This document shows positions 2,128-28,195 of a DNA stretch of 34,432 nucleotides, piece after piece. The stretch spans positions 1 through 34,432 of the forward strand of contig MU266602.1 in the NCBI GenBank assembly GCA_021014945.1, given 5' to 3'. The translations under genes were made by a program, and so were the position numbers. The number at the start of each line of letters is the position of its first letter. Position 1 is the first letter of the stretch. The DNA is from Leucogyrophana mollusca (taxonomy: Eukaryota; Basidiomycota; Agaricomycetes; Boletales). The notes below the pieces were generated by a model that saw only the letters and a program-made list of their open reading frames with translations, ran no database searches and was not told the origin of the DNA.

Positions 2128-3189
2128 GCCTTGGATAATGCCATTCTCAGTGTTATGTCGGGAGGCTAGGCGTCGGTGGTATACAGGCGATTGTGTCGAT
2201 AATGTGATGACGCCCTGGTACTACACCTCCAGAACATTTTTTGTTTTTTTTTGTTGACTTTGATCAGTCGAACTTCGGTGGATTTATAATGACATGTGCC
2301 CGTTGAAATTGTCCCTAGTGTTCGCTCGGATAGGGCTTGAGTAAAATTGACAACCAATCCACTGGCTTATGGAGGAGAACCAGAGTGGATTATTGCGCGC
2401 GGGTCTGAAGTGCAGGCCATTTGTGAGGCAGTCAAGAAGAATTGAACCCAATGAGACAACAGCCTTTTCACGAACTTGAAGTCCAAGCAACTAAGTATGC
2501 GCTGCAAGCAAACGGTTTTCTCGGCACTCACAACCAATAAAACAATACTTATAGTCCTGCTCCCTTTTCACTGAGTGCATCGTGAAAGGGGTAGGTATGT
2601 TGCGCAGTGAGTGATATTGCTTTATGTAACCCCCTGGTCTGTTCCATGTTCCCAACAGCGTCAGTGTATGGATTCGAGTCACATGGATAATACACGAGCA
2701 AGAACTTGAAGCTGAATAATATCAATAACCACCGCATTGGAACTACTTCCCGAGGTACTGTGATAATATCACTCAATTACTGCGCGGTATACCTAACCCT
2801 TCTACAGTGCACTCATTAACAAGGGAGCATTGACCACCGCTGGAACCACCTCCTGAAGCACCCGTGATAAGTGTAGTTACCAAGTAAGGCCACCCTGTAG
2901 GTTGAGTGGAAGAGGTCGAGTGTGCAGACAAGAATTCCGCCGTGGAGGGGTGAAAAATATGGAGTTCCGATCGGTTCCACCGATGCTGATGACCAGTGGC
3001 GGGAAATTAGGAGCTACTCGCAATGGAAGTGTGTATGTCGGATCATCAATCCAGTTTAGAATGTCCGTCAAGGTATCATGTATCGAGCCTCGAACGTGTA
3101 CCTGACTGCTGTCAACGCGACGTGCAGACAACACTATTGGTCCAGTGGTTGGTCGATATAATATAAGCAAAGCCAAGTCACTTCAGCGG
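2128..3189. other. Intergenic part of arm A with a fold-back repeat
   Basis: No gene is seen. Bases 2128-2405 match, inverted, the 3' flank of the arm B cysteine-rich gene (about 20960-21245). Bases 2877-3189 match, inverted, the 3' flank of the arm B permease (about 16028-16190). Between them lies an imperfect inverted repeat (2558-2618 and 2766-2829). The stretch it encloses has the same orientation as its match in arm B, unlike everything around it. Confidence 0.6.
2558..2829. repeat. Imperfect inverted repeat (fold-back), about 60-bp arms
   Basis: Bases 2558-2618 and the reverse complement of 2766-2829 share TGCTCCCTT, GAGTGCA, a TAGGTA block, GCGCAGT and GAGTGATATT in the same order with small indels. 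About 150 bp separate the arms. This could be an old MITE or a chance product of local inversion; no target duplication is evident. Confidence 0.55.
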
Positions 3190-5498
3190 TCACGCCGAAA
3201 CGGACGTTTTGCGCATACCAGCTTCAGAGAACGCATGGATTATAAGGATTGTGCCGAAACCGCCAATTACGAAGAGGAAAGCAAAGACGATCACTGTTAT
3301 GATGCCGGGGCTACAAATCACCCTGGAATTCGGACTGAGGTCTCCCCACATCTCCACTGGCAGGCCTGACCTTCGATTCCGGCCCCCACCACTTCTCCGT
3401 GCCTCGCAGCACAGCATATACGATGCCTGCGACAACGAAACCGACGTATATTCCGATATCACCTGTTCCCATGTGCGCAATAGGCCCCACGTAAAATGCC
3501 TGCGACATGAATGGGACTAGTGCGCCGCATCCGCACAGAAATGCCAACATGGCAGGAATCCCACTTGGTAGAAGGGAAGGTGTGGCCCACGATGTCACAG
3601 GATAGGCTGCCTCCGTAAAGGAAGCACGTCGGAAGAGGATGTGTTCGACCAGTACTATTGCGACGAAGACAGCAACCCAATACCCAATAACATCTTCGCA
3701 ACAATAGGGTCAGTTTGGCACAAAAATATATCCTTGCTCTAAGCTTACTCAGAATGTCGACGAACGTGGTGTAAAATTTTCTAGCACCAATGATTGCGAC
3801 TGGTACCAACCTAACAATTATTCAGTGAATCAGTCGTTGCTCGATGGGCGGATGAGGACCACACTCACACCCCCTCGGAGATCAGCACATGAACCCACCG
3901 CGGAACGGCTGCGAACCAGGGATGTACGGTCATAAAACTCGTTCCGACCGAGTACATCGCAAGTATACAAGAACTAGGAATGCTGAGGGCCACCATAGCC
4001 GTCAAAAATGTGCCGAAAGCGCCAGCCGGCCCGAGGACTGCAAAGACAAGGCCTCCGACAGACGAACTATTGTCGAAACCCGCACTCCAAGCTGCTACAC
4101 TGGGTGCGGCAGCGGCGAAGGCTGCTCCAAGGGCGCTGCTAGTGAACTACGTAAGAGAGTAAGTACTATCGGGGCCAGGCTGGGATGGAAACTTACGGTA
4201 GCGATGAGAAACCCTAAGTAACAATAAATAAAAATCCTTGTCCTGTGCATCTCAGTCTGCATGAGATTCCCTGTTGAAAAGAAGGCTAACTTACGAAGAG
4301 GTAGCAGGACTATGGTATACACCATAATCGGACGTGATGGTGCACCAAGACAGAATGCTTGATGCGAGGACGGAGGCGAAAGAAAGTACAGCAGCCGGAG
4401 TAGCAGGTGGAACGGAGACAGACTGGTTTTCATGTAATTGAGGGTAACCGAGGGCGAGCATAGTAATGAAAGCAACAACATTTGGTACCCAGGCTACACT
4501 TTGGTACCTGTGAAAGCAGTGCATCACTATTAGCTCTCCAATAAAACAACCTAAGGATGGCGACTACACAAACCAGTGGACAACACGGTAGCCACAGAAC
4601 GTCAACTGTGACCCGGCTTTAAGTGTTATACAGAAGTACGCTTATACAAGCAAGTGTACGCACGACGAGTGAGATCAGGCTGATAATGACAATTCCCAAT
4701 GATACATCCAAATGGGAAGAAATACTCGCAAGGGCCTGACCACCAAGGATACAGGAGATGATAAGAAAACCCTGCAATGAGAAGACGTTGAGGAGACTCG
4801 GGATGGCGGCGCCATAGTATCTGACATACTGCACGTCAAGACATCTTGAATAGATGCACATGAAAGGAGATTGAACGCACCCCCAAGAAAAGCGTGACTG
4901 GACCATAGAACGCATGCCTAGTTTAGGGCCAAACACTGCACTGAGGCGCATGATTCGAAATCAGTCGCTGCGGTACGTTGTTCGAATATACCACCTACAG
5001 TATTGCCGGAAGCGCGCAGAAACTAAGAGTATGCAGGTGAGTACCGAGCAACAAAATCGTTCGCCATCCTCACACTAAGTCGACGATCAATATGATCACG
5101 ATTGAATCCCTAACACCGAGGCCGAAGAAAGCAGGACCCGCCGTTCCTCCACTGAAGCTATCGAGACTTGAGTTATGAATAAGAAAGGTGGGAAACATGC
5201 TTGCATCACAAGGTTCATACTGCCGGAAAACCACACGAAGAACATCTGGTACCACCGAGTGTCCACACGTGCCTCAACAGGTACTGGTGCGATCCTGGCC
5301 GCAGCGTCGTTCAGAGGTAAAAATCATTGATAAATGTACTCGCCCATGCGTCTCGACCCCCCAACGAGTGAACATAATAGTAACACGACGTAGCCATCCC
5401 TGCGACCCGACCGTATCAGGCTCGTCAACTGGGAGCGATTCGATTCGTATGTCGCCAACAGAAGGCCGGGTGGAAAGAGGTTTTTCCTTGTCAGTCAT
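3190..5498 (-). CDS. Purine-cytosine permease, NCS1/FCY2-like (copy A)
   Basis: Membrane symporter of the NCS1 family; fungal FCY2-type members import cytosine, adenine, guanine and hypoxanthine at the plasma membrane. Family landmarks seen in order: WGVETHG near residue 50, FFVWFSG, GPAFFGLGVRDS, FGPKLGMRSMVQSRFSWG, YYGAAIPSLLN, SILSWCTITSDYGVY, GYWVAVFVAIV followed by VEHILFRRA, and FMSQAFYVGPIAHMGTGDIG. The coding exons match copy B (13717-16028) without frameshift or stop. However, three donors that are GT in copy B are GC here (GCGAGT after WGVETHG, GCAAGC after SMNLV, GCCTGC before the last exon), and two acceptor AGs have moved or been lost. Copy A may therefore be spliced poorly or be an early pseudogene. 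The start is set by alignment with copy B (MTDKEK). Confidence 0.8.
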
Positions 5499-6477
5499 CT
5501 CGGGTGTGCATGCTCGAGCGCAGTGCTGCGAGAGGACGGAGGGGGACTTGGATTTGATACTATGTAGCTCTGTCATCGTGACGTACAAAACGGGAAGCGA
5601 CCGAATGGCAATTGAGAGCACTGTAGGTCCAAGTGTCCATTGGTGTTACGCCTAAGCCAATCTGATGAAGAGTTATCCAACGGCGCACGTCAAATGGGCA
5701 CCAAGGTACGGCGACAGCGTTTCTTAGTTCGGATGTCGGCGTCGATGTCATTGATCTCGTGCTTGGCATCTTCAGTATCGGCAGTTTATTGCCCTCCTAT
5801 CTTGAAACTGGTCAAGGCCTCTTCACCTTCGCTCCCCAAGTATAGTGGGTCGGCATGTGGCGCCGCTCGTCGGAGTCGTCCCGACGCCGAGCTCGATAGC
5901 CTCCTCAAGCTCGTGATTCAATCCACAAGTCCCCGCGCCCCATTGGGCTAGCCGACCTCTGCCACCAGCACACAGGGTCTCTGCGAGCGATTTGAGTGGC
6001 CAGTTGCAGTGATGGACAGATAGGTCTGGGCATAGGTACGATCATGATGCCGTACTGGTGTGCTATGCCAAAAAATTCGGATGAAGCTTCGACCATATCG
6101 GTCGTTGGAATCACGGTGACAATATGGGTCGTCGAACTGCATGGATAAACGATAAGCGCTTCGAAATTCGAAGAGACAAAGGTAGACCATCACCGTGACT
6201 ATAAATCATAGTCATTTAAACATGTTTCCGAAAACCCTGTTCCGCGTGTCCAAATGCAGTTTTGACAGCGGTTTGCAAAGCAATATAGAGGTCAATGTAC
6301 AGCATCTATCTTGGGGTCGTAGCAGGCCGTAGTGTCATAGGCGTGGTTGGTTGGTGGTTGGCGTGTTTGGCTTGATGGCGTGGTGGCAAGAGTCCTCGGC
6401 CCTCATCGCGAGCACGTCAGCGAGTGACTCAGTCGACCGACGTCTACGGTCAATACATGTTCGTCGAGATGGAAGCA
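5499..6477. other. Permease upstream region (conserved in both arms) and arm A edge
   Basis: From 5499 to about 6200 this matches the region upstream of permease copy B, inverted. A stretch around 5705-5845 keeps one reading frame and the same stop codon as in arm B, with a hydrophobic part (DLVLGIFSIGSLLPSYL), but an indel just upstream breaks the frame between copies. It may be a gene remnant. From 6200 to 6477 I see only GT/TG-rich spacer. Confidence 0.4.
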
Positions 6478-6907
6478 TACTGTAGCCTTTCGACCTTAGG
6501 TTCGTCACGACGTCACGCGGGGTCGTGAACCGAACCTATATGATGTGACGGTCACATGAATTCGGAGGGGGACGAACCTAAAATCCGGACGACGGTACAG
6601 GCATATTTTGTGAAATTCTACATGTCAAAATACACTAAAATATACACTCAACGGCCCTCATATTTGTTCAGGGCACCCTCGTAACCCGTCTCTGGAAAAG
6701 TGCTCCCTCTTGCTTGATATGGCCTTATCTGTGATCTTCCAAGCCAGCGAATCAATCGCAACAGGTTGCGACGCACCGCAGAAAATTGGATCCTGCGAAC
6801 CTAATTTTTCCGCGTCACGCGTCCGACCCCCCGACGAACCTACGAATCTAACGTGACGGCGCGTCACGGTCGACCCCCCACGAACCTAAGGTCGAAAGGG
6901 TACAGTA
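6478..6907. mobile_element. MITE with terminal inverted repeats, Tc1/mariner-like
   Basis: The ends are inverted copies of CTGTA(G/C)CCTTTCGACCTTAG continuing to GGTTCGT, about 26 bp with one mismatch. They are flanked by TA on each side (6478-6479 and 6906-6907), as for a TA target duplication. The 430-bp body has at least six CGAACCT motifs in either orientation near the ends and no coding capacity, so it must have been moved by a transposase elsewhere. Family assignment rests on the TA flanks only. Confidence 0.75.
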
Positions 6908-6974
6908 CATCAAAGGTTACACCACAAGCTCAGGTCTGACCCTCAAGTTTGCCCAAGGGCACAGTGAATTGCAA

Positions 6975-7045
6975 GCATTAATGGGGTAGTGGTAACCTGG
7001 GTCGTTGCCATCGACCCGCCGGGGGTTCGATTCCCCCTTAATGCA
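6975..7045 (+). tRNA. tRNA-Gly (GCC), copy 1
   Basis: A 71-nt cloverleaf with no intron. The acceptor stem pairs GCATTAA with TTAATGC, the anticodon stem pairs GGTCG with CGACC around the loop TTGCCAT (anticodon GCC), and the T arm is GGGGG TTCGATT CCCCC. A TTTT polymerase III stop lies at 7055-7058. The sequence is identical to the copies at 8543-8613 and 23083-23153. Confidence 0.95.
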
Positions 7046-7242
7046 GCGATGAACTTTTCGTATGATCAGGCTAGGTGCAGTTTTTGATCCGTCCTCGAGC
7101 TCAAGAATACCATAGCCTGCCACGAAATATTGACGTACCATTCATTTTGCTTGTAACGAGATGTAAGTAATGTGACTCTCGAAGCTAACGAAGCTCTCGA
7201 TTATCCACTGCCTATGTATGTACGTCCGCGTCCTTCAAAGCT

Positions 7243-8242
7243 TCACGTGTAAAACTTTCGATTCTCGTTGGGGCCGAAGAGGTCTTTGCGGATTTCGGGC
7301 AGCATCTACGAAAGACGTGTCAGGGTATAGGGATGTCTCGGGGACAAGATTGGATGCGCACCCTGTCCTCCAAAAGTCGCAGACGTTCGTCCAGAGTGTT
7401 GTCAATAGTTATCCGTCGCGTGCCACTCGCAAGCTTGATGCCGCCAGCACTGTGGCACCACAAGGTTCTAATCAGGATAACAGGACAGCAAAGGCGCAGG
7501 ACACTCACGAATCCTTGCTCAGAGTCGCCTCAATCTCAAAAGTGACTTCTCTTCCGCTGACTTGAGTATACGACTCCGCTGCACCCTCTGCGGCCTTTTG
7601 TACCAACTCGGCATCCTGCTCGCGGGCGTATAGCGTAACTTTGGGCTCCATGAGCTGGAGATATCCCTGCACGATCACGCCCTCCAGGAACTGGGCATAC
7701 CGCCCTTCATCCTCCGCGAGCGTCAGTATCGAGGAGCGTGCGGTCGCAAAGAGTTCCTGAAGCTGTTCCTCCCGGCGATGCAAGAGCTTTAGCCGTGACT
7801 TATTCGTGAGGTTCGAGTGTGCGCTGCAAGCACAGTTCAATGAGCGAGGGACAGTGAATCGACGAATGGGCACTTTGGTGTGCGTACATCTTTTGGGCTA
7901 CATCAGCACCCTTGCGTTTCTTGTCGTACTGAGCGTCAATAGCTTGCTGTTCCTGTTTCACCAGCTTTGCCTGTGCAGTGAGAGATCGAGGTGAGTTCTG
8001 ACGGAAGCCGAATATGCTGTCTGGAACCACTTGCTTTCTCGATGGCGAACTCTTCATCGGCTTTTACCTTTATCTCGCGAGCTTTCTCCATGGCTTCTTG
8101 CTTGATAAACGCGACCTAGAGACAGCGATTCCGAGATCAGGCATCTGTTGGATGTCCTCCGACGCGCAGTCCGTTGACCACGACGCACCATCTTGTTCAT
8201 TTCGCTCAGCACCTCGTCATCATTTAATGCTCTTGAAGACAT
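7243..8242 (-). CDS. VMA4: V-type proton ATPase subunit E
   Basis: Subunit E forms part of the peripheral stalk of the vacuolar H+-ATPase, joining the ATP-hydrolysing V1 head to the membrane Vo ring. Six exons in phase (7243-7305, 7362-7467, 7509-7823, 7888-7970, 8035-8115, 8189-8242) give 233 residues, the usual length. Signatures are MSSRALNDDEVLSEMNKM at the start, a charged helical region (FIKQEAMEKAREIKVKADEE), KLLHRREEQLQELF, and the C-terminal NTLDERLRLLEDRMLPEIRK ending in LFG plus a short tail. The intron at 7971-8034 appears to be GC-AG (GCAAGT donor), since only that join restores EKAKLVKQE. Convergent and divergent tRNA-Gly genes flank it on both sides. Housekeeping and surely functional. 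Confidence 0.95.
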
Positions 8243-8542
8243 GTTGCTTAATAGGGACTTGCGTCAGATTCCTTCGTGCTGGGTGGTTAGGGATCTAACG
8301 AGGACGAATTAGAGATATACAGAAGGCGTAACGCTTGAATTGCGCGTCAGACTGTTGTGGTGGCTGAAGGTCTCTGAGCTGAACACCACTCGATTTGGAA
8401 AATCACATTGCGCAACCATGGCACAAATCTAAGAACTACATAGGCATGCGTACAGCTTGCTGCATTAAACGACAACGAAAAGCAATTGAGGAGAGGCAAA
8501 AAGACATCAACGAAAGGATCCATCGAAGAGCCCAAAATTTAT

Positions 8543-8613
8543 TGCATTAAGGGGGAATCGAACCCCCGGCGGGTCGATGGCAACGACCCAGGTTACCACT
8601 ACCCCATTAATGC
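8543..8613 (-). tRNA. tRNA-Gly (GCC), copy 2
   Basis: Exact reverse complement of the tRNA at 6975-7045, with a complete cloverleaf and anticodon GCC. Four A residues at 8534-8537 give the TTTT stop on the minus strand. Together with copy 1 it brackets the V-ATPase subunit E gene as an identical 71-bp inverted repeat. Confidence 0.95.
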
Positions 8614-9154
8614 TTGCGGTGAGCGCCAGTCCTTGTCACATCCATGATCTATCATCAGCATTCCTTCCTATCTTCCTATGGAAGCCACTGAATTTGTTCA
8701 AGAGACTCACAGGGTTCTGGGGGAATACTACCCGTCGAGCTGTGAGTGCGGTTCGGAGTGCTCACCCAGGGACACATTCCATGTCAACTGATCTCGTCTG
8801 GTGGAGAACCGGGTCCAAGCTGGAGTAGGCTGGAGTCTGCCCAGACGGTTAAGTCCAGCGAGGTTGCTCGTGGTTTCCCATTCGACCGGGTTTGGCCAGA
8901 GGGCCGACTAGCATGTCGAAACAGTTCTCTCCCGGAGCTTGGCAGTAGGGCAACGACTGGAAACGATAAAAGACTATTTCGTAGCGACCCCGCAGTGCAC
9001 AAAGTTTACGCTTCGGCTCTACCAGAGTCCATGATCCCGTCCTAATATATATTATAAGGTCACCGCTTCAACTGGTCTCTCCGATTCGAAGGAGTTCACT
9101 GCGCTCGAGTCGACCTTGCACACCACCCACCTTAGCGCGACTGGGGCATTTGAG
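8614..9154. other. Intergenic, nothing recognised
   Basis: Only short open frames without protein-family features. An AT-rich stretch (ATATATATTATAAGG) lies near 9045. Confidence 0.5.
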
Positions 9155-9924: not shown

Positions 9925-10295
9925 ATGAAATCTGCCTCAATCGCTGTTATTCTTGTTGCCGCCATCGCGGCCTCGGGCGTTCCGTAGGTGTTCTGACATG
10001 ATATCAATATTGCATTGGGTCGGGAGTTGCTTATTCCTCGTGTCATTCCAGGTTAAACGCTCGTGACGACTCGCCCAACAACTGGGGCAAGCCCCGCGAC
10101 GAGTCTCCTAACAATTGGGGCAAGCCCCGCGACGAGTCTCCCAACAACTGGAGCAATATTCGTGACATGTCCTCCGACAACTGGAGCACTACTCGTGACA
10201 TGTCCTCCGACAACTGGAGCACTACTCGTGACATGTCCTCCGACAACTGGAGCACTACTCGTGACATGTCCTCCGACAACTGGGGCAAGCCCTGA
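9925..10295 (+). CDS. Secreted repeat-peptide precursor (seven 11-residue units)
   Basis: Two exons (9925-9983 and 10052-10295) joined by a 68-nt GT-AG intron give exactly 100 residues. Residues 1-24 are a signal peptide plus short leader (MKSASIAVILVAAIAASGVP, then LNAR). Then come seven head-to-tail units: DDSPNNWGKPR, DESPNNWGKPR, DESPNNWSNIR, three times DMSSDNWSTTR, and DMSSDNWGKP followed by the stop. Each unit is 33 bp, and units 4-6 are identical in DNA. The consensus is D-x-S-x-x-N-W-x-x-x-R, with no cysteines. Every unit except the last ends in Arg, the leader also ends in Arg, and the last unit lacks only that Arg. This fits a precursor cut after Arg (Kex2 accepts Pro-Arg) and trimmed. 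Fungal Kex2-processed repeat proteins and dikaritin RiPP precursors share this architecture, but I recognise no known peptide. A repetitive structural wall protein is the alternative. Confidence 0.82.
10065..10292 (+). repeat. 33-bp coding tandem repeat, about 6.9 copies
   Basis: Units start at 10065, 10098, 10131, 10164, 10197, 10230 and 10263. Units 4-6 are identical. Units 3 and 7 are chimeras of the two sequence types: type-1 front with a type-2-like back in unit 3, type-2 front with a type-1 back in unit 7. This implies expansion by unequal exchange. Confidence 0.95.
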
Positions 10296-12516: not shown

Positions 12517-13716
12517 TATGCGCAATGGTTCCTTTACAGATCAATTCGAGGGAGACCTAGTGCTCGCACAGCGAGTGGGCAGCGCCGTTGGTCATTTATA
12601 TCGGTGTGAGGGAGAACATACGGCCCGTAATCCATAGGTCAGCTGTTACACTGTTGCTCTCCCAAACTATCCGTGTTATTAGGCAGTAGTATGAACCAGG
12701 TACGTTTTTAGACGAGGAATTGATTATCTGATTTCTTTGGGTGACGGAGGGTGTCGGGGAGCATATTTTACCTGAGGGTTGCCCGTCACATCACTTACCT
12801 GGCACCAGCACATGCTGCACAAGCGCAACTAGAAAGATACTTAAAATTCGGTAGTAAATACTGTTGGCGATAGGGCGCAACCAGCCGTTGCATACCGTGT
12901 CCCACGCGCCCCGTGACACCATAACCACACAGACACATGATGCTTTACTTGACCATGATCTATGTTAACGGTGACGGTCGACGGTTGTCTCTTTGGCTCT
13001 CGAAGTGCTTATCGTTTATCTATGCAGACTTGCTGTGGAAGACCCAGCTCGTCACCAGGACTCCAACGACCGATATGGTCCAACCCTGATCCGACTTTTA
13101 TATAGCACGCCAGCATGATTGTGCCTATGCCCAAACCTATCTGTCCATCAACTGCCACATCGCTCGCAGGGACTGTGTGTGGCGGAAGCCGGCTAGTCCA
13201 ATGGGGCACAAGTGTTTGCGTGTTGAATCACGAGCCTAAGGAAGCTATCGAGCTCAGTGTCGGGACGATATCGAGCAGCCACATACGGTTGACCTACTAT
13301 ATCCGAGGAGTGAAGGCGAAGAGGCCTTGACTAAACCCAAGATAGGAGGGCAATAGACTATCGATACTGAAGATGCCAAGCAAGAGATGCATGACATCGA
13401 CGTCGACATCCGAGCTGAGAAACGCTGTCGCCGTATCTTGGTACTCAATCGATGTGCTCCATTGGACAGATGCATCAGATTGGCTGGGGCGCAACACCAA
13501 CCGACACCCGGACCCATGGTCCTCTCAATCGCCATGCGGATCGCTCCCTTTCTAGTACGTCACAATTCAGAATTTGTCGATGCAATGCTACTTTTCGCTT
13601 CAGCTCCATACTAGGTCTCCCCTCTTCGGTTCCACAAGATATGATACATAGTATAAAATCCAAGTCTCTTCCTCCCTCCTCTCGCAGCACTGCGCTCGAG
13701 CATACACCAACTCGAG
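12517..13716. other. Spacer, then conserved upstream part of arm B
   Basis: From 12517 to about 12960 I see no feature; it should include the aldo/keto reductase promoter. From about 12960 to 13716 the sequence matches, inverted, 5499-6200 upstream of permease copy A, including the conserved but frame-broken open stretch on the minus strand (about 13300-13440). Confidence 0.45.
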
Positions 13717-16028
13717 ATGACTGACAAGGAAAAATCTGATTCCACCCGGCCTTCTGTTGGCGACACACATATCGAGTTGCTTCCGGTCGGCGAGTCTGAT
13801 ACGGTCGGGTCGCAGGGATGGCTACGGCGTGTGACTATTATGTTCGCTCGTTGGGGGGTCGAGACACATGGGTGAGTACATCTATCAACGACTTTTTTCT
13901 CTCCGACGACGCGCTGTGGCCAGGATCACACCAGTACCTGTTGAGGCACGTGTGGACACTCGGTGGTACCAGATGTTCTTCGTGTGGTTTTCCGGTAATA
14001 TGAATATTGTAATGTAAGCATAATTCTCACTTTTCGTATTCCCAGCTCAAGTCTCGATAGCTTCAGCGGAGGCGCATCGGGTCCTGCTGTCTTCGGTCTC
14101 GGTGTTAGGGATTCAATCGTGGTCATATTGATCGTGGATCTAGTGTAAGGACGGCGAACGAATTTGTGGCTCAATACTCACATGCATGCTCCTAGTTTCT
14201 GCGCGCTTCCGGCAATACTGTAGGTGGTATATTCGATCAACGTACCGCGGCGACTGATTTCGAAATATGCGCCTCAGGGCAGTGTTTGGCCCTAAACTAG
14301 GCACGCGTTCTATGGTCCAGTCACGCTTCTCTTGGGGGTGCGTTCATTTCCCTTCATTTGCATCCATTCTCAGGATGTCCTGACGTGCAATATGTCAGAT
14401 ACTATGGCGCCGCCATCCCGAGTCTCCTCAACGTCTTCTCATTGCAGGGTTCTCTTATCATCTCCTGCATCCTTGGTGGTCAAGCCCTTGCAAGCATTTC
14501 TTCCCATGTGGATGTATCTTTGGGCATTGTTATCATCAGCCTGATCTCACTCGTCGTGCGTACACTCACTTGCATAAGTGTACTTTTGTATAACACTTTA
14601 AGCTGGGCCACAGTTGACGTTCTGTGGCTACCGCATCGTCCACTGGTTTGTAGATTCGTCGTCCTCTAGTTGTTGTATTGGAGAGCTGATATTGATGCAC
14701 CGTTTTTACAGGTACGAAAGTGTAGCCTGGATACCAAATGTTGTTGCTTTCATTACCATGCTCGCCCTCGGTTACCCACAATTGCATGAAAACCAGTCCG
14801 CCTCCGTTCCACCTGTTACTCCAGCTGCTGTACTTTCTTTCTCCTCCGTCCTTGCATCAAGCATTCTGTCTTGGTGTACCATCACGTCCGATTATGGTGT
14901 ATACCATAGTCCTGCTACCTCTTCGTAAGTGAGCCCTCCTTTCAAAGGGAATGTCGTGCAGACTGGGTGGCACAGGACTAGGATTTTTATCTATTCTTAC
15001 TTAGGGTTTCTCATCGCTACCGTGAGTTTCCTTCCCGGCCTAGCCCCAACAATACTTACTCTCTTATGCAGTTCACTGGAAGCGCCCTTGGAGCAGCCTT
15101 CGCCGCCGCCGCACCCAGTGTGCCAGTTTGGAATGTGGGTTTCGACAATAGCTCGTCTATTGGAGGCCTTGTCTTTGCAGTCCTCAAGCCAGCTGGCGCT
15201 TTTGGCACATTTTTGACAGCTATGGTGGCCCTCAGCATTCCCAGTGCTTGTATACCTGCGATGTACTCGGTTGGAACGAGTTTTATGACTGTACATCCCC
15301 GGTTTGCGGCCGTTCCGCGGTGGGTTTATGTGCTGGTCTCCGAGGGGGTGTGAGTGTGGTCTTCATCCGCCCATCGAGCAACGACTGATTCACTGAATAA
15401 TTGTTAGGTTGGTACCTGTCGCAATCATTGGTGCTAGAACGTTTTACGTCACGTTCGTCGACATCCTGAGTAAGCTTAAAGTAAGGATATATTTTTGTGT
15501 CAAACTGACCCTATTGTTGCGAAGATGTTGTTGGGTATTGGATTGCCGTCTTCGTTGCGATAGTATTTGTCGAACACATCCTCTTCCGACGTGCTTCTTT
15601 TACGGAGGCGGCCTATCCCGTCACATCGTGGGCCACACCTTCCCTTCTGCCAAGTGGAATTCCTGCGATGCTGGCATTCCTGTGCGGATGCGGCGCACTA
15701 GTTCCATTCATGTCGCAGGCATTTTACGTGGGGCCTATTGCGCACATGGGAACAGGTGATATCGGAATATACGTCGGCTTCGTTGTCGCAGGGATCGTGT
15801 ATACTGTGCTGCGAGGCACAGAGAAGTGGTGGGGGCCAAAGTTGAAGGTCAGGTCTGCCAGCGGAGATGTGAGGGGACTTCATTCCGAATTCCAGGGCGA
15901 TATGTAACCCCAGCACCACAACAGTGATCGTCTTCGCTATCCTCGTCGCAATTGGCGGTTTCGGCACAATCGTTGTGATCCATGCGTTCTCTGAAGCCGA
16001 TATGCGCAAAATATTCGTTTCGGCATGA
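13717..16028 (+). CDS. Purine-cytosine permease, NCS1/FCY2-like (copy B)
   Basis: Plasma-membrane nucleobase symporter of the fungal FCY2 type, about 500 residues with about 12 membrane helices. It starts at MTDKEKSDSTRPSVGD. Family signatures are WGVETHG joined to ITPVPVEARVDTRWYQMFF, GPAVFGLGVRDS, FGPKLGTRSMVQSRFSWG joined to YYGAAIPSLLN, GCGALVPFMSQAFYVGPIAH and GTGDIGIYVGF. A short last exon adds a helix (TVIVFAILVAIGGFGTIVVI) and ends MRKIFVSA. All introns I traced have GT donors and AG acceptors, unlike copy A, so this looks like the functional copy. The substrate (cytosine, purines or a relative) cannot be settled from sequence alone. Confidence 0.9.
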
Positions 16029-16995
16029 CTACCGAACTGACTTGGCTTTCGTTATGTTTCATCTACCAACTACCTGTACCAATCGTGTTGTCTGCACGTC
16101 GCGTTGACAATGCAGTCAAATACACGTTCGAGTAGCTCCTAGTTGCCCACCGCTGACATCTGGAGGTCGGCATCGGTGGAACCGATCGCGATTGGAACCC
16201 CATACCGATATCGCATTATGTAACTTGTCTGTGGTCTGCTCCAACAGCATCGGTCCATAATTTTGAGTCACATGGATAATACACGAATAAGAAGTTGTTG
16301 TACTGGTTGTGGGCGCCAAGAAGACAGTTTGCTTGCAGCTCTCAAGATCTAGTCCAGAACACCCAGCATGAATGCGTGAGCCTTCGCATTGGGAAAGGCA
16401 TCAGATGTCCTTCTTACTTCCGTATGACAGAACAATGGAAGCAGATTTTTGGGGCGGGTTTTACACTTTTTGAGGTTGTTCAGGCGCGTCGCACTGGTAT
16501 AAATGGAGAGGCGCGTCCCACGTGATTCGTGAGTCCCGTAACACGTGTTGTGGTGCCAGCAGTGTGAGAGCCGAGCACAATCTAACTTGATGCTCGGGTC
16601 ACCGAATGGCCTTAATTTAGGCGAGTCTCTGGTCTATATACAACACACCGCTCGCGCTCACGTACCGTCCTGTGTCCACGCTGACCAGAAGGCAAATAGT
16701 CTTCTCAGAGTTCTCATCCATATCGATACCATCACCTGGTCGTCTTTGCGTCTCCGGGCTGGCCGCTTTTGAGTACACATCTTGTCATGTGTATGGTTGA
16801 AGTCCCCCGATCCACCGCAGAGTAGAAGAGAAAGACAATAACGGTTTAACGCGATTATTCCCGCAGGCTTCTCGCCGAGTATTAAAGCCATCAGTCGAAA
16901 TGGCTTCGATCCTCCAGTCCCTGGTTGCTTGCCTTTGGGCCTCCATTATCTCCACTTCGTCGCGCCTTCTTGGTGTACTTCCGCTCTCTCTTCAA
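16029..16995. other. Spacer and likely promoter/5' leader of the fucosidase gene
   Basis: Bases 16029-16190 match arm A inverted. Bases 16205-16295 match arm A (2610-2712) in direct orientation, and 16300-16345 are inverted again. After about 16350 the sequence is unique to arm B. TATAAATG at 16498 and CTATATAC near 16633 are TATA candidates. An in-frame ATG at 16900 could lengthen the fucosidase, but the next ATG (16996) gives a much better signal peptide. Confidence 0.5.
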
Positions 16996-20665: not shown

Positions 20666-21245
20666 TTGGGGACATTGTATCACATATTTGGTTTTTACAC
20701 GAACTGTATCCTGAATGTACCTATGTATGCGGTGGGGCTTTGTGGCCACGACACGCATCACTAACATCATACCCAAGAACCTTGTCACTTATCTTTATAT
20801 CGACTGTTTGACCACCATCATTTCCCTACATATGTACCTTTTGGAGTGAGCTTCTGCTGCCGTCCCTTCCCCGCTGCCAGACCAATCAACCTCCACCCCT
20901 GGACTCGTAGCCACTCTGGATAAGATCTTAACACAGCCGAGCAGCATTGTCGTATCCACTGTACTTTCGCATAATACAATATGGTTCCCCAGTATAGGGT
21001 AATGGATTGTATCATTGGTCAAGCCCTGTCAGGGAAACAGGGAACCGTCAGTTAAAACGGGTGCAAGTTCTCATAAAATCCATTCAAGCTCAACTGATCA
21101 GGAATCAAGGGCAACAAGAAAACAAAGAATGCTCTGGAGGGGTAGTACTGGGACGTCGTCACATTATCAACATAATCGCCTGTATATCACCAACGCCCAG
21201 CCTCCCGACACAACACCATGTCACGATAACGGCATTATCTAAGGC
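20666..21245. other. Spacer between convergent fucosidase and cysteine-rich genes
   Basis: No gene is seen. From about 20960 onward it matches the 3' flank of the arm A cysteine-rich gene, inverted. Bases 20666-20960 belong to the arm-B-only segment. Confidence 0.5.
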
Positions 21246-22387
21246 TCAGAAAAAGCCAGGCAGCCCTTGGAGGAGGGGAACGCAGATGACGGTTGCAATG
21301 ACAAGCGCTTGCCAGTTGAACATGAGCGCAAGGTTGCGTGGAGCACCTCCAAGTCCGCCTGCGCAGGGACGAGTCAATTATAAACGGCGGGGAGCTGCGA
21401 TGGTTACTTACCAAATGGTGAACTGCCGCCGCCACTACCGAGGCCAGGGTTACCACCTGACGCACTCGAAGGGCTAGTGGCTGATCCAAGAGAGGTACTC
21501 GTGTGGGTAACGGATCTCGTGCTAATAGTAGTCTTCACAACGGAAGATGTGATCGAAGGGGGAGGCGAAGGAGACCCTCCTCCGCCACCTCCACCTCCAC
21601 CTCCGCCGCCTCCAGGGTAGTAGCATTGGTATGTGTTTGCTATGCAGGTACTTCCAGTCGGACAACCTAGCAGCAAGATCAGAAGGAGTCATTTTAAGCT
21701 ATGGAAATACACCTTACACCCTTCAGCAGAATCGTTGCAGCAGTGATATCCCAGTTTGCAACATCCGCCCTTTTCGCAGCACCCGCTGCCAGAGACACAG
21801 CAATCCGTTCCGCCACATACTTGCGCGTCTTTCGGACAACACCTATGCAATACACACGATCAGACAGACATATGACCAAATACTTCTATAGTCACGGGCT
21901 CACTCGTTGTCACCGAAGCACTATTAGCATGGTCAATGAACGTCAGTATATATAATATAGCCCCCAATCGGACGACGGCGAAAGTACACCAACGTTTTCA
22001 TTGTTAGGGCAATTCCACACAGAGTTACACTAGTGCGCACCAGCCTGTTATTCCCAACATACATCAGCGCAGAAGACTGAAGCTTACGCAGTAGGACCCA
22101 TTGGGAGCGCAGTAATTCGGGTAGTTTGGGCATACATCTGGAAGACTGATAGGTTGTGACGGTCGAGTCGTAGAGCGTATTAACATACGATATCCTGAAG
22201 GGCAGTAATCTCTCGCGATGTAACGACCTCTTCGAGCCAGAAGGGCTGGGATACTCGATGACTTCTTTGATGCTGCCTTCGTATTCTTGGGAACTCGAGG
22301 GAAAGTTGCAGCGGTAGCGACAGGGTCTGCGACGGCGATCTGAAGGAAGAGGAACGCAAGCACTACGGAGAGGGTGAATCGCAGCAT
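21246..22387 (-). CDS. Secreted cysteine-rich, glycine-linker, GPI-type surface protein (copy B)
   Basis: Duplicate of the gene at 959-2127, with the same order of parts: signal peptide (MLRFTLSVVLAFLFLQIAVA), basic stretch with RR, cysteine-dense core (CCPKDAQVCGGTDCC, GSGCCEKGGCCKLGYHCC, CCPTGSTC), polyglycine linker, Ser/Thr-rich stretch, and a hydrophobic GPI-type tail (ALVIATVICVPLLQGLPGFF). The same introns can be placed at the same sites. The cysteines are kept while residues between them change (for example SECCNDGG against SGCCEKGG), suggesting both copies make protein. A TATA-like CTTATAAGG lies about 50 bases upstream (22437-22445). The function is unknown. Confidence 0.75.
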
Positions 22388-23082
22388 GACTGTGCTTTCA
22401 AGCCAAACTCGACATCCGTAAACTCTTGAGCTTGAGCCTTATAAGCGAGGAAGATAGGCACTCGTCCCACATGGGAGAGGGCCGCGAACGAACGGGTGTC
22501 AGCTGGGTATCTTAGCGAAGATGGTTGGACTCAAAGACCATCGGGACTTTGTTAGACCAAACGAGGAAAAGAGCTACTATGGGGCTCAGTGACTACATCG
22601 CCCGAAGATGCATCGTCGTCGGCGTCCACTCGCTGATACTGTTACACCATGCTGTGAACCAGCCTGTCGGGTGTGATGTAGATAGTCGACGCGTCATCTG
22701 GAAGTCAATGGTGGGTCGGCACTCACTCGATACTCGCTCTCTCGCATGGTACATAAGAATCGGAGATATTAATTCTGCCAGCCAGTTTGCATGGTTGACA
22801 CTCGGTTCAGAACTATTCATGTGGATTCCGAGTCGTCTCTTCTGCAGGCCTTCTATCAATTACTTGGCATCTTTTCGGCGGGACGCGAGAACACAAGCAA
22901 TGCAAGAAGTGGTGTAAACTCTTGTCGGCGTCGAGGTGGACTGAGGATCGACTGATCAGCCGTCGCATACGATTGCAAGTGGATACTTGGGTTGGAGAGC
23001 ATTGAGCGAAATGCGGCCTGGTGAAAGTGCATATTTACATACGATCGTATTATAGTGTCCCAACGAGACGAAGCCTTTTATG
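22388..23082. other. Intergenic, nothing recognised
   Basis: Promoter side of the cysteine-rich copy B, followed by spacer up to the tRNA. Open frames here have no family features. Confidence 0.5.
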
Positions 23083-23153
23083 GCATTAATGGGGTAGTGG
23101 TAACCTGGGTCGTTGCCATCGACCCGCCGGGGGTTCGATTCCCCCTTAATGCA
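23083..23153 (+). tRNA. tRNA-Gly (GCC), copy 3
   Basis: Identical over all 71 nt to the copies at 6975-7045 and 8543-8613, with a TTTTTT stop at 23162-23167. It lies about 100 bases upstream of the GNAT-Mss4 start codon. The flanks do not resemble those of the other two copies. Confidence 0.95.
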
Positions 23154-23250: not shown

Positions 23251-24512
23251 ATGACCGTACACGTCGTATTCAACAACGTTCCCTTTGATCAATTACAGAG
23301 TGCGATCGAGATAGAAAAACGATGTAGGTTGTCTTCCTCGACGATAGGATTGCTCACTCTCAACGACCAGCTGCGCTTCTTTGAGCAGGCTTTCCCCCCG
23401 ATGAAGCTGCTTCTCTCGAGAGCTTCACGTATGTCTTCAAATTATGTCTCTGCGATCGATTGACCTCAGCTTGTCATCAGCTCTCGCCAGCGACAGGCAC
23501 CCGACCTCTTTCTCGGCGCATATCTCGCCTCGGATCCCCAAACACTCATAGGCTACGCCTGTTCCACTCTCTCGCCTTCTCCGACCCTCACACACGATTC
23601 GATGTTCACCCACATCCCCGGATCCTCGTCTGTTTGTCTCCACGCCGTCACGGTATTACCCGCGTACCGGAAACAGGGCGTCGGATCCGCGTTATTGCGC
23701 GAGTATATATCGCGCCTCGAACGCGTTCCATCGTACGAACGGATCCTGCTCATTACACACGAGGACCTCCGATCCTTCTATGAAGGCGTCGGATTCGAGT
23801 GGCTGGGCAAGAGCCCAGTAGAACATGGCTCGCAGCCCTGGTTCGAGATGCGCAAGATTCTCCATCCCGCCGAACCACCTGCATCCCAACACCAGACACA
23901 GTCCTTGCCACCCGGAGTGTGGGAGGCTCTCCAGCGGCCTTCAGGCGGCAAAGCTACGGTACGCAGGTTGGATGACTTCGCAGAGGGGGTCCTCGGGGTG
24001 ACAACACCACATTCATCCGACGACGGGGCCCTCAAGAACAGGTTTGATCTTGTGTGTCCTCGGGACGGCTGCGGCAGTATCATATTGAAGGCTGGTGCGG
24101 GAAAGTGGGTCGAACGATCCAGTCTCGAGGTCTGTTCTTTGATTTGACGTTGTCCGATTAAAGTTTGCGCTCACGCCTTCGCTACAGCTCGATCCTCCGA
24201 ACCAGCTGATTCATCCACAGCTCCCAGAACTCCCCACCCCTCCCGCTACAGCCCAGTGGTGGCTCATCACCCCGTCTCCGATGGCCTTCGAGAACATCGG
24301 CTTCACACGTCCTGTTCCGTCTGTCGCTCAGTCCAACAGTAAGGGTCCTCGTATCTAAACTGAGTACGACCATTGATGGAGCGCCTGTTTAAGTGCCTGA
24401 AAAGAAGCTGAAGCTTCTCATATGCGCCGAGTGTGATCTAGGTCCGCTGGGGTGGAGCGAAGAAGGTGGGAGTGAATTTTGGCTGGCCTGCAGCAGGGTA
24501 GGCTACGCGTAA
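23251..24512 (+). CDS. GNAT acetyltransferase fused to an Mss4/Dss4 domain
   Basis: Five exons (23251-23323, 23389-23428, 23481-24129, 24188-24338, 24394-24512) give 343 residues in phase. Residues 1 to about 178 are a GNAT fold of the arylalkylamine/polyamine acetyltransferase type: CFPPDEAASLESF, PDLFLGAYL, VCLHAVTVLPAYRKQGVGSA (acetyl-CoA loop), and FYEGVGFEWLGKSPVEHG. After a Pro/Gln-rich linker, residues from about 222 form an Mss4-like zinc domain: NRFDLVCPRDGCGSIILK, WWLITPSPMAFENIGFTRP, and LLICAECDLGPLGW with FWLACSRVGY at the end. Mss4/Dss4 proteins bind nucleotide-free Rab GTPases in secretion. The two domains sit mostly in one exon (exon 3), so a mis-joined pair of genes is unlikely. 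How acetylation and Rab binding relate is unknown. Confidence 0.9.

Positions 24513-24773: not shown

Positions 24774-28195
<3,422 letters not shown>

Follow-up and report, generated by a model that had tools for sequence, protein, structure and literature searches.

What does a 33-nucleotide tandem array encode when it lies behind a hydrophobic leader in a basidiomycete genome, and would its product be secreted whole or cut into peptides? The array in question stands at 9925-10295 on the plus strand of a contig from Leucogyrophana mollusca, a wood-inhabiting member of the Boletales; the window, that is, the whole stretch of DNA that was analysed (34,432 nucleotides), corresponds to this contig (C276) in full, in an assembly of 32.3 Mb and 545 contigs. 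A two-exon frame with a predicted 68-nt intron gives a 100-residue product, and its frame, intron signals, hydrophobic leader and repeats can be read directly in the sequence (Table 1). We think it probable that this unannotated and so far orphan gene encodes a protein that is cut after Arg and trimmed of that Arg, so that about seven short linear peptides are released. The expression, cutting and function of the precursor are what we infer.

Table 1. Coordinates of the predicted precursor gene, its leader and its repeat units (positions in the window).
Feature	Position	Strand	Description
Exon 1	9925-9983	+	Start codon and most of the secretory leader: MKSASIAVILVAAIAASGV plus 2 nt of the next codon
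Predicted intron	9984-10051	+	68 nt; donor GTAGGT, acceptor CAG
Exon 2	10052-10292	+	Leader end and repeat units
Leader end	10052-10064	+	...P-L-N-A-R; LxxR-type presumed cut site ahead of unit 1
Unit 1	10065-10097	+	DDSPNNWGKPR
Unit 2	10098-10130	+	DESPNNWGKPR
Unit 3	10131-10163	+	DESPNNWSNIR; N-W-S sequon
Unit 4	10164-10196	+	DMSSDNWSTTR; N-W-S sequon
Unit 5	10197-10229	+	DMSSDNWSTTR
Unit 6	10230-10262	+	DMSSDNWSTTR
Unit 7	10263-10295	+	DMSSDNWGKP, then stop TGA
Stop TGA	10293-10295	+	Takes the place of the unit 7 Arg codon
AATAAA	10408-10413	+	Possible polyadenylation signal, about 115 nt past the stop; a six-base match, weak alone

The leader is 24 residues long and ends in Arg (V-P-L-N-A-R). 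Its hydrophobic core follows Met-Lys and has a mean Kyte-Doolittle value of 3.29 over 10 residues, a hydropathy by which its secretory character was judged. The splice is needed to give the repeats a leader, since exon 1, left unspliced, runs into a TAG just past ...GVP, and in exon 2 no ATG precedes the repeats; a branch-like CTTAT (10030-10034) lies 17-21 nt ahead of the intron acceptor. An earlier, sequence-only reading of this DNA had proposed the frame and its coordinates, the leader ending in Arg and the seven-unit structure, and we found each of them exactly as claimed. It had also remarked that the last unit halts where its Arg would stand, and a TGA does replace the Arg codon there.

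Units 1-6 have 11 residues each and unit 7 has 10. D1, S3, N6 and W7 are invariant in all seven units, and Arg11 is invariant in the six that reach it. All seven Args of the 100-residue protein are boundary residues, dibasic pairs are absent from it (the boundaries read A-R, P-R, I-R and T-R), and it contains no Tyr, Cys, Gln, His or Phe. Tandem Repeats Finder reports the 33-nt array as two overlapping rows. Units 4-6 are identical at the DNA level, so this stretch probably arose recently; unit 7 is mosaic, joining the front of unit 4 to the end of units 1/2. The tripeptide N-W-S, an N-glycosylation sequon, occurs in units 3-6 (10131-10262) and N-W-G in units 1, 2 and 7; glycosylation could affect cutting. 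Two of the predicted peptides, DESPNNWGKP and DMSSDNWSTT, share a nominal mass (calculated [M+H]+ 1143.507 and 1143.426), as do their Arg-bearing forms (1299.608 and 1299.527), so telling them apart takes high resolution or MS/MS. For the other predicted peptides the calculated [M+H]+ is 1129.491 (DDSPNNWGKP; 1285.592 with Arg), 1175.496 (DESPNNWSNI; 1331.598 with Arg) and 1136.468 (DMSSDNWGKP).

Searches for relatives of the protein returned none. Among about 5.8 billion proteins, 216 candidates shared words with the query and none matched at E <= 10; the plasmid collection held no homologue; and the pattern was fitted by six stretches of viral contigs and by 66 stretches of bacterial and archaeal genomes, with none confirmed in either set. 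Pfam gave no family for the 100-residue protein at E <= 1. Three ribosomal mL49 sequences in the PDB (E 0.3-0.66) were taken as chance, and a match on contig C21 of the same genome (35% identity, two internal stops, E 0.25) was likewise dismissed. The DNA-level search for fungal relatives covered the fungus's own genome, which held no second copy; a units-only query gave three matches there, all inside the array itself. MiSSP8 of Laccaria bicolor was also considered, as a Trp-containing relative, and was set aside, the papers listed including none devoted to it. The titles and abstracts among the matches listed for the literature on Kex2-processed repeat proteins (KEPs), Kex2 sites and RiPPs, a set with few subscription journals, contained no description of the gene.

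The search of the protein database returned no annotated protein for the gene, for which a self-copy would score about 207 bits. The GNAT frame at 23464-24147, searched in the same database, found a Leucogyrophana mollusca protein at 99% identity, with the next relative, from Hygrophoropsis aurantiaca, at 73%. Full-length GH95 proteins run to about 800 residues and exceed the length limits of the search, which makes the GNAT neighbour a better database control than the GH95 exon. Since this annotated neighbour, apparently from the same contig, is in the database and the search returned no array protein, the annotators seem not to have called the gene; the missing annotation may be either an oversight or a warning that a transcript had not been seen. 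Of the 7878 KEPs catalogued, 2560 are without a homologue (PMC7329392; this and the other papers are cited from partial text), so an orphan is nothing out of the ordinary among such genes.

By what route might such a protein be processed? The leader would direct it into the secretory pathway, where a kexin-like protease would cut past each boundary Arg (L-N-A-R, K-P-R, N-I-R, T-T-R) and before Asp; a Kex1-like carboxypeptidase would then strip the Arg to leave some seven linear peptides of 10 residues, D-x-S-x-x-N-W-x-x-x. Cutting after Arg had been put forward in the earlier reading, and the layout behind that proposal stands, with its secretory-type leader, Arg at all seven boundaries and an Arg-less end, while the cutting itself is what we infer from it.

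Residues around the presumed sites bear on whether Kex2 would accept them. P2 at the six inter-unit boundaries is Pro, Pro, Ile, Thr, Thr and Thr, and the published ranking of Kex2 P2 alternatives runs Arg, Thr, Pro, Glu, Ile; LxxR is in use as an expanded Kex2 motif for pro-domain effectors (both PMC8528282), and the leader's L-N-A-R, which comes soon after the N-terminus, fits it with Leu at P4 and Arg at P1, a short-motif match that makes it a predicted site. Judged by sequence, the inter-unit P2 residues and the LxxR leader thus agree with published Kex2 tolerance (PMC8528282). Against cutting, the leader has Ala at P2, which is not one of the five residues in that ranking (PMC8528282), and the inter-unit P4 is Gly or Ser rather than the favoured aliphatic residue. 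For comparison, Thr, Pro or Ile precedes Arg in 14.1% of 3355 xR dipeptides from 240 proteins (relatives of GH95 and GNAT only), and Asp follows Arg in 2.7% of cases in those proteins versus seven of seven in the precursor. Acidic P1'/P2' residues are over-represented at cleaved Kex2 sites (PMC2515848). In the precursor, P1' is acidic in all seven units and P2' in three. Since the units arose by copying, however, P2 and P1' amount to few independent observations.

Candidate enzymes are encoded in the same genome. A kexin-type P-domain and an S8 domain lie on contig C125, with a further S8 gene on C79; the P-domain search of the genome pointed to one place, and three kex2 genes are reported for other agaricomycetes (PMC9769878). 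The genome also gave 27 exon-level matches to S10 carboxypeptidases, such counts being lower bounds, and a DPPIV-type peptidase on C226. The XA/XP dipeptides expected by STE13 in an alpha-pheromone-like KEP are absent from the precursor, and its units begin with D-D, D-E or D-M. If peptides are released, their role would, by analogy, most likely be in interaction with other organisms, as has been proposed for the KEP peptides of the agaricomycete Coprinopsis cinerea (C. cinerea), where six KEP knockouts gave no phenotype (PMC9769878).

Processing presupposes a gene, and we regard it as quite unlikely that the locus is a decayed gene, or a non-coding minisatellite that is open by chance and happens to follow a signal-like ATG. 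Such an origin would fit a sequence with no annotated protein and no homologue in the protein, own-genome, plasmid, viral and prokaryotic searches, and it would fit an array with three further open frames; since an array with a 33-nt period, once open in a given frame, is likely to be open along its length, the four open frames of six mean little by themselves. It would also fit the column-permutation test of amino-acid constraint in the array, which was not significant (787 of 8060 stop-free permutations equal or better for six units, 1516 of 7742 for seven). Because the substitution pattern is not unusual, the coding case depends on the leader, the splice and the frame in which the stop falls. 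The leader test took arbitrary positions and looked for a start codon that could be connected to them in the reading frame, with or without a splice, and that was followed by a hydrophobic N-terminus. One that equalled or exceeded the 10-residue mean of 3.29 was found at 5 of 29,560 positions in 200 kb of the same genome, in none of 5000 first-order Markov sequences built from the upstream 300 bases, and at 9 of 9,724 positions within the window (four belonging to this gene itself and five to two unspliced stretches), which are rough odds, given overlapping positions and criteria drawn up once the gene had been seen. The 200-kb sample contained five tandem arrays (period >= 9, >= 2.5 copies), none with a leader above even a looser hydropathy cut-off of 2.2. 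In addition, a stop codon in the frame of the leader marks the exact end of the array.

Granted a gene, the main rival is that its product is secreted uncut, as a repeat protein lacking a stable fold that may, for example, be associated with the wall or surface, is rich in Ser, Asn, Asp and Trp, and is possibly N-glycosylated at the N-W-S of units 3-6. The absence of dibasic sites would be expected of it, as would the non-aliphatic Gly or Ser at the inter-unit P4 and the sequon in four of the seven units. It needs neither Args restricted to boundaries nor a terminal unit halting at the Arg codon, though both are present, and the P2 residues of the units lie within the tolerated Kex2 set (PMC8528282); on these grounds we consider an uncut protein possible but unlikely. 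The AlphaFold single-sequence model, in which the repeat region has no confident fold (mean pLDDT 48.3, two short strands), suggests that the sites would be accessible, but a model of such low confidence fits the cut and uncut readings alike and separates neither. Very improbable, by comparison, is a dikaritin-like RiPP precursor with cores cross-linked or cyclised through Trp. The repeat layout is common to dikaritin precursors (ustiloxin, phomopsin, asperipin), and the genome has at least 35 exon-level matches to UstYa (DUF3328), 34 of them above the curated cut-off. None of these is on the contig, however; the protein has neither Cys nor Tyr, the latter stated to be in the core of three dikaritins (PMC7329392); it lacks dibasic sites; and no peptide-modifying enzyme was recognised in the 19 scanned window frames of 157 listed. 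The Trp cross-links that the earlier reading had suggested looking for are, for the same lack of Tyr, Cys and a UstYa match on the contig, unsupported. On the evidence, then, the precursor is very probably not a dikaritin, within a contig that ends about 10 kb to the left and 24 kb to the right of the gene, probably fewer than the 15 nearest genes scanned in PMC7329392, and is too short to cover a more distant UstYa. Groups of these UstYa matches stand close together on contigs C364 (4476-8490 and 14730-18437) and C417 and are possible RiPP clusters, which might include repeat precursors.

If the precursor is cut at its Args as we propose, its closest parallels are the KEPs. Those of C. cinerea resemble it in having a secretory leader, a short protein and near-identical tandem units that end in a basic residue, with presumed processing by Kex2 and then Kex1 (PMC9769878); they differ in that their boundaries are KR, RR, KK or RK, whereas here each is a single Arg. 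The published C. cinerea peptides ending in ...SW carry Trp at the C-terminus (PMC9769878), while here it is position 7 of the unit. The KEP definition of Umemura 2020 (PMC7329392) calls for at least three tandem repeats of at least eight residues, and the precursor has seven of 10-11; for an ER signal peptide, for which the N-terminus offers its 10-residue mean of 3.29, a hydropathy measure only; and for KR, KK, RK or RR between repeats, which are lacking and place the precursor outside that definition. The precursor may fairly be described as working like a KEP with monobasic sites, but not as being a KEP.

Precedents for cutting at a single Arg come from other fungal systems. The Kex2-processed pro-domain (K2PP) effectors share with the leader, which ends in L-N-A-R, an expanded monobasic LxxR motif, but they consist of one pro-domain and one protein, whereas here the site precedes an array and the later boundaries lack Leu at P4 (PMC8528282). 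Monobasic Kex2 sites are reported as confirmed in the killer toxins K1 and K28, and a K74 homologue has an LKAR site. These are a precedent for single-Arg cutting of fungal secreted precursors, but of another kind, with few cut sites between toxin domains and no sequence relation found (PMC13211469). When C. cinerea KEPs were expressed in Pichia, several products were apparently cut past a single Arg (PMC9769878). The description of the single-Arg or Pro-Arg site as unlike known ones was therefore too strong, given that Kex2 takes Thr, Pro or Ile at P2 and given LxxR and the killer toxins; what holds of it is that the 1461-assembly KEP census (PMC7329392) and the first of the two methods used to screen C. 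cinerea (PMC9769878) take no boundaries other than dibasic ones.

Around the gene there is a large inverted duplication (arms 3145-6220 and 12944-16073); the gene sits close to its centre, within its non-duplicated part. Pieces of the arms are 80-91% alike; the inner arms carry a multi-pass membrane-like protein, whose scanned pieces gave no Pfam family above the cut-off, and an outer pair (958-2148 and 21225-22388) carries two related, secreted-looking Gly-rich frames. Three tRNA-Gly (GCC) genes are present, at 6975-7045 (+), 8543-8613 (-) and 23083-23153 (+), of which the first two are perfect copies in inverted orientation, separated by about 1.5 kb, with a V-ATPase subunit E frame between them. 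Besides that subunit, the 19 window frames scanned against Pfam gave a GH95 fucosidase, a GNAT, a cellobiose dehydrogenase (CDH) cytochrome domain with a FAD-binding frame, a Ras-like GTPase and a fungal kinase, and these recognised neighbours indicate no peptide-modifying cluster. The CDH cytochrome domain (PF16010) and FAD-binding frames, at 26832-28108 (-), are consistent with a cellobiose dehydrogenase gene in a brown-rot species. Elsewhere in the genome, at 3888-8955 within C23:20001-30000, there is a 5-kb satellite-like tandem array with a 71-base unit, about 71 copies and 71% matches.

How far is such a precursor new? The earlier reading had offered it as a candidate new precursor. No homologue was found among about 5.8 billion proteins, and monobasic Kex2 cutting is already known. 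The unusual point is that the boundaries are exclusively single Args, with precedents at the level of the protease. A census of 1461 fungal assemblies accepted only dibasic boundaries between repeats (PMC7329392), as did the in-silico cleavage used first to screen C. cinerea; the other method in that study was inspection by eye (PMC9769878), which such a gene might not escape. It is a tentative suggestion, and a doubtful one at present, that the gene represents a class of secreted repeat precursors in basidiomycetes that are cut only at monobasic Arg-Asp, have been overlooked by dibasic screens and yield sets of short N-W core peptides.

A single orphan, predicted gene carries limited weight, the more so as about a third of catalogued KEPs are already homologue-free (PMC7329392). 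If it is expressed and cut, dibasic-only screens undercount precursors of this kind, and there would be good reason for a screen that also accepts Arg when P2 is Thr, Pro, Ile or Ala. In that case the array would also provide a compact, naturally occurring substrate on which to test the tolerance of a basidiomycete Kex2 for single-Arg sites.
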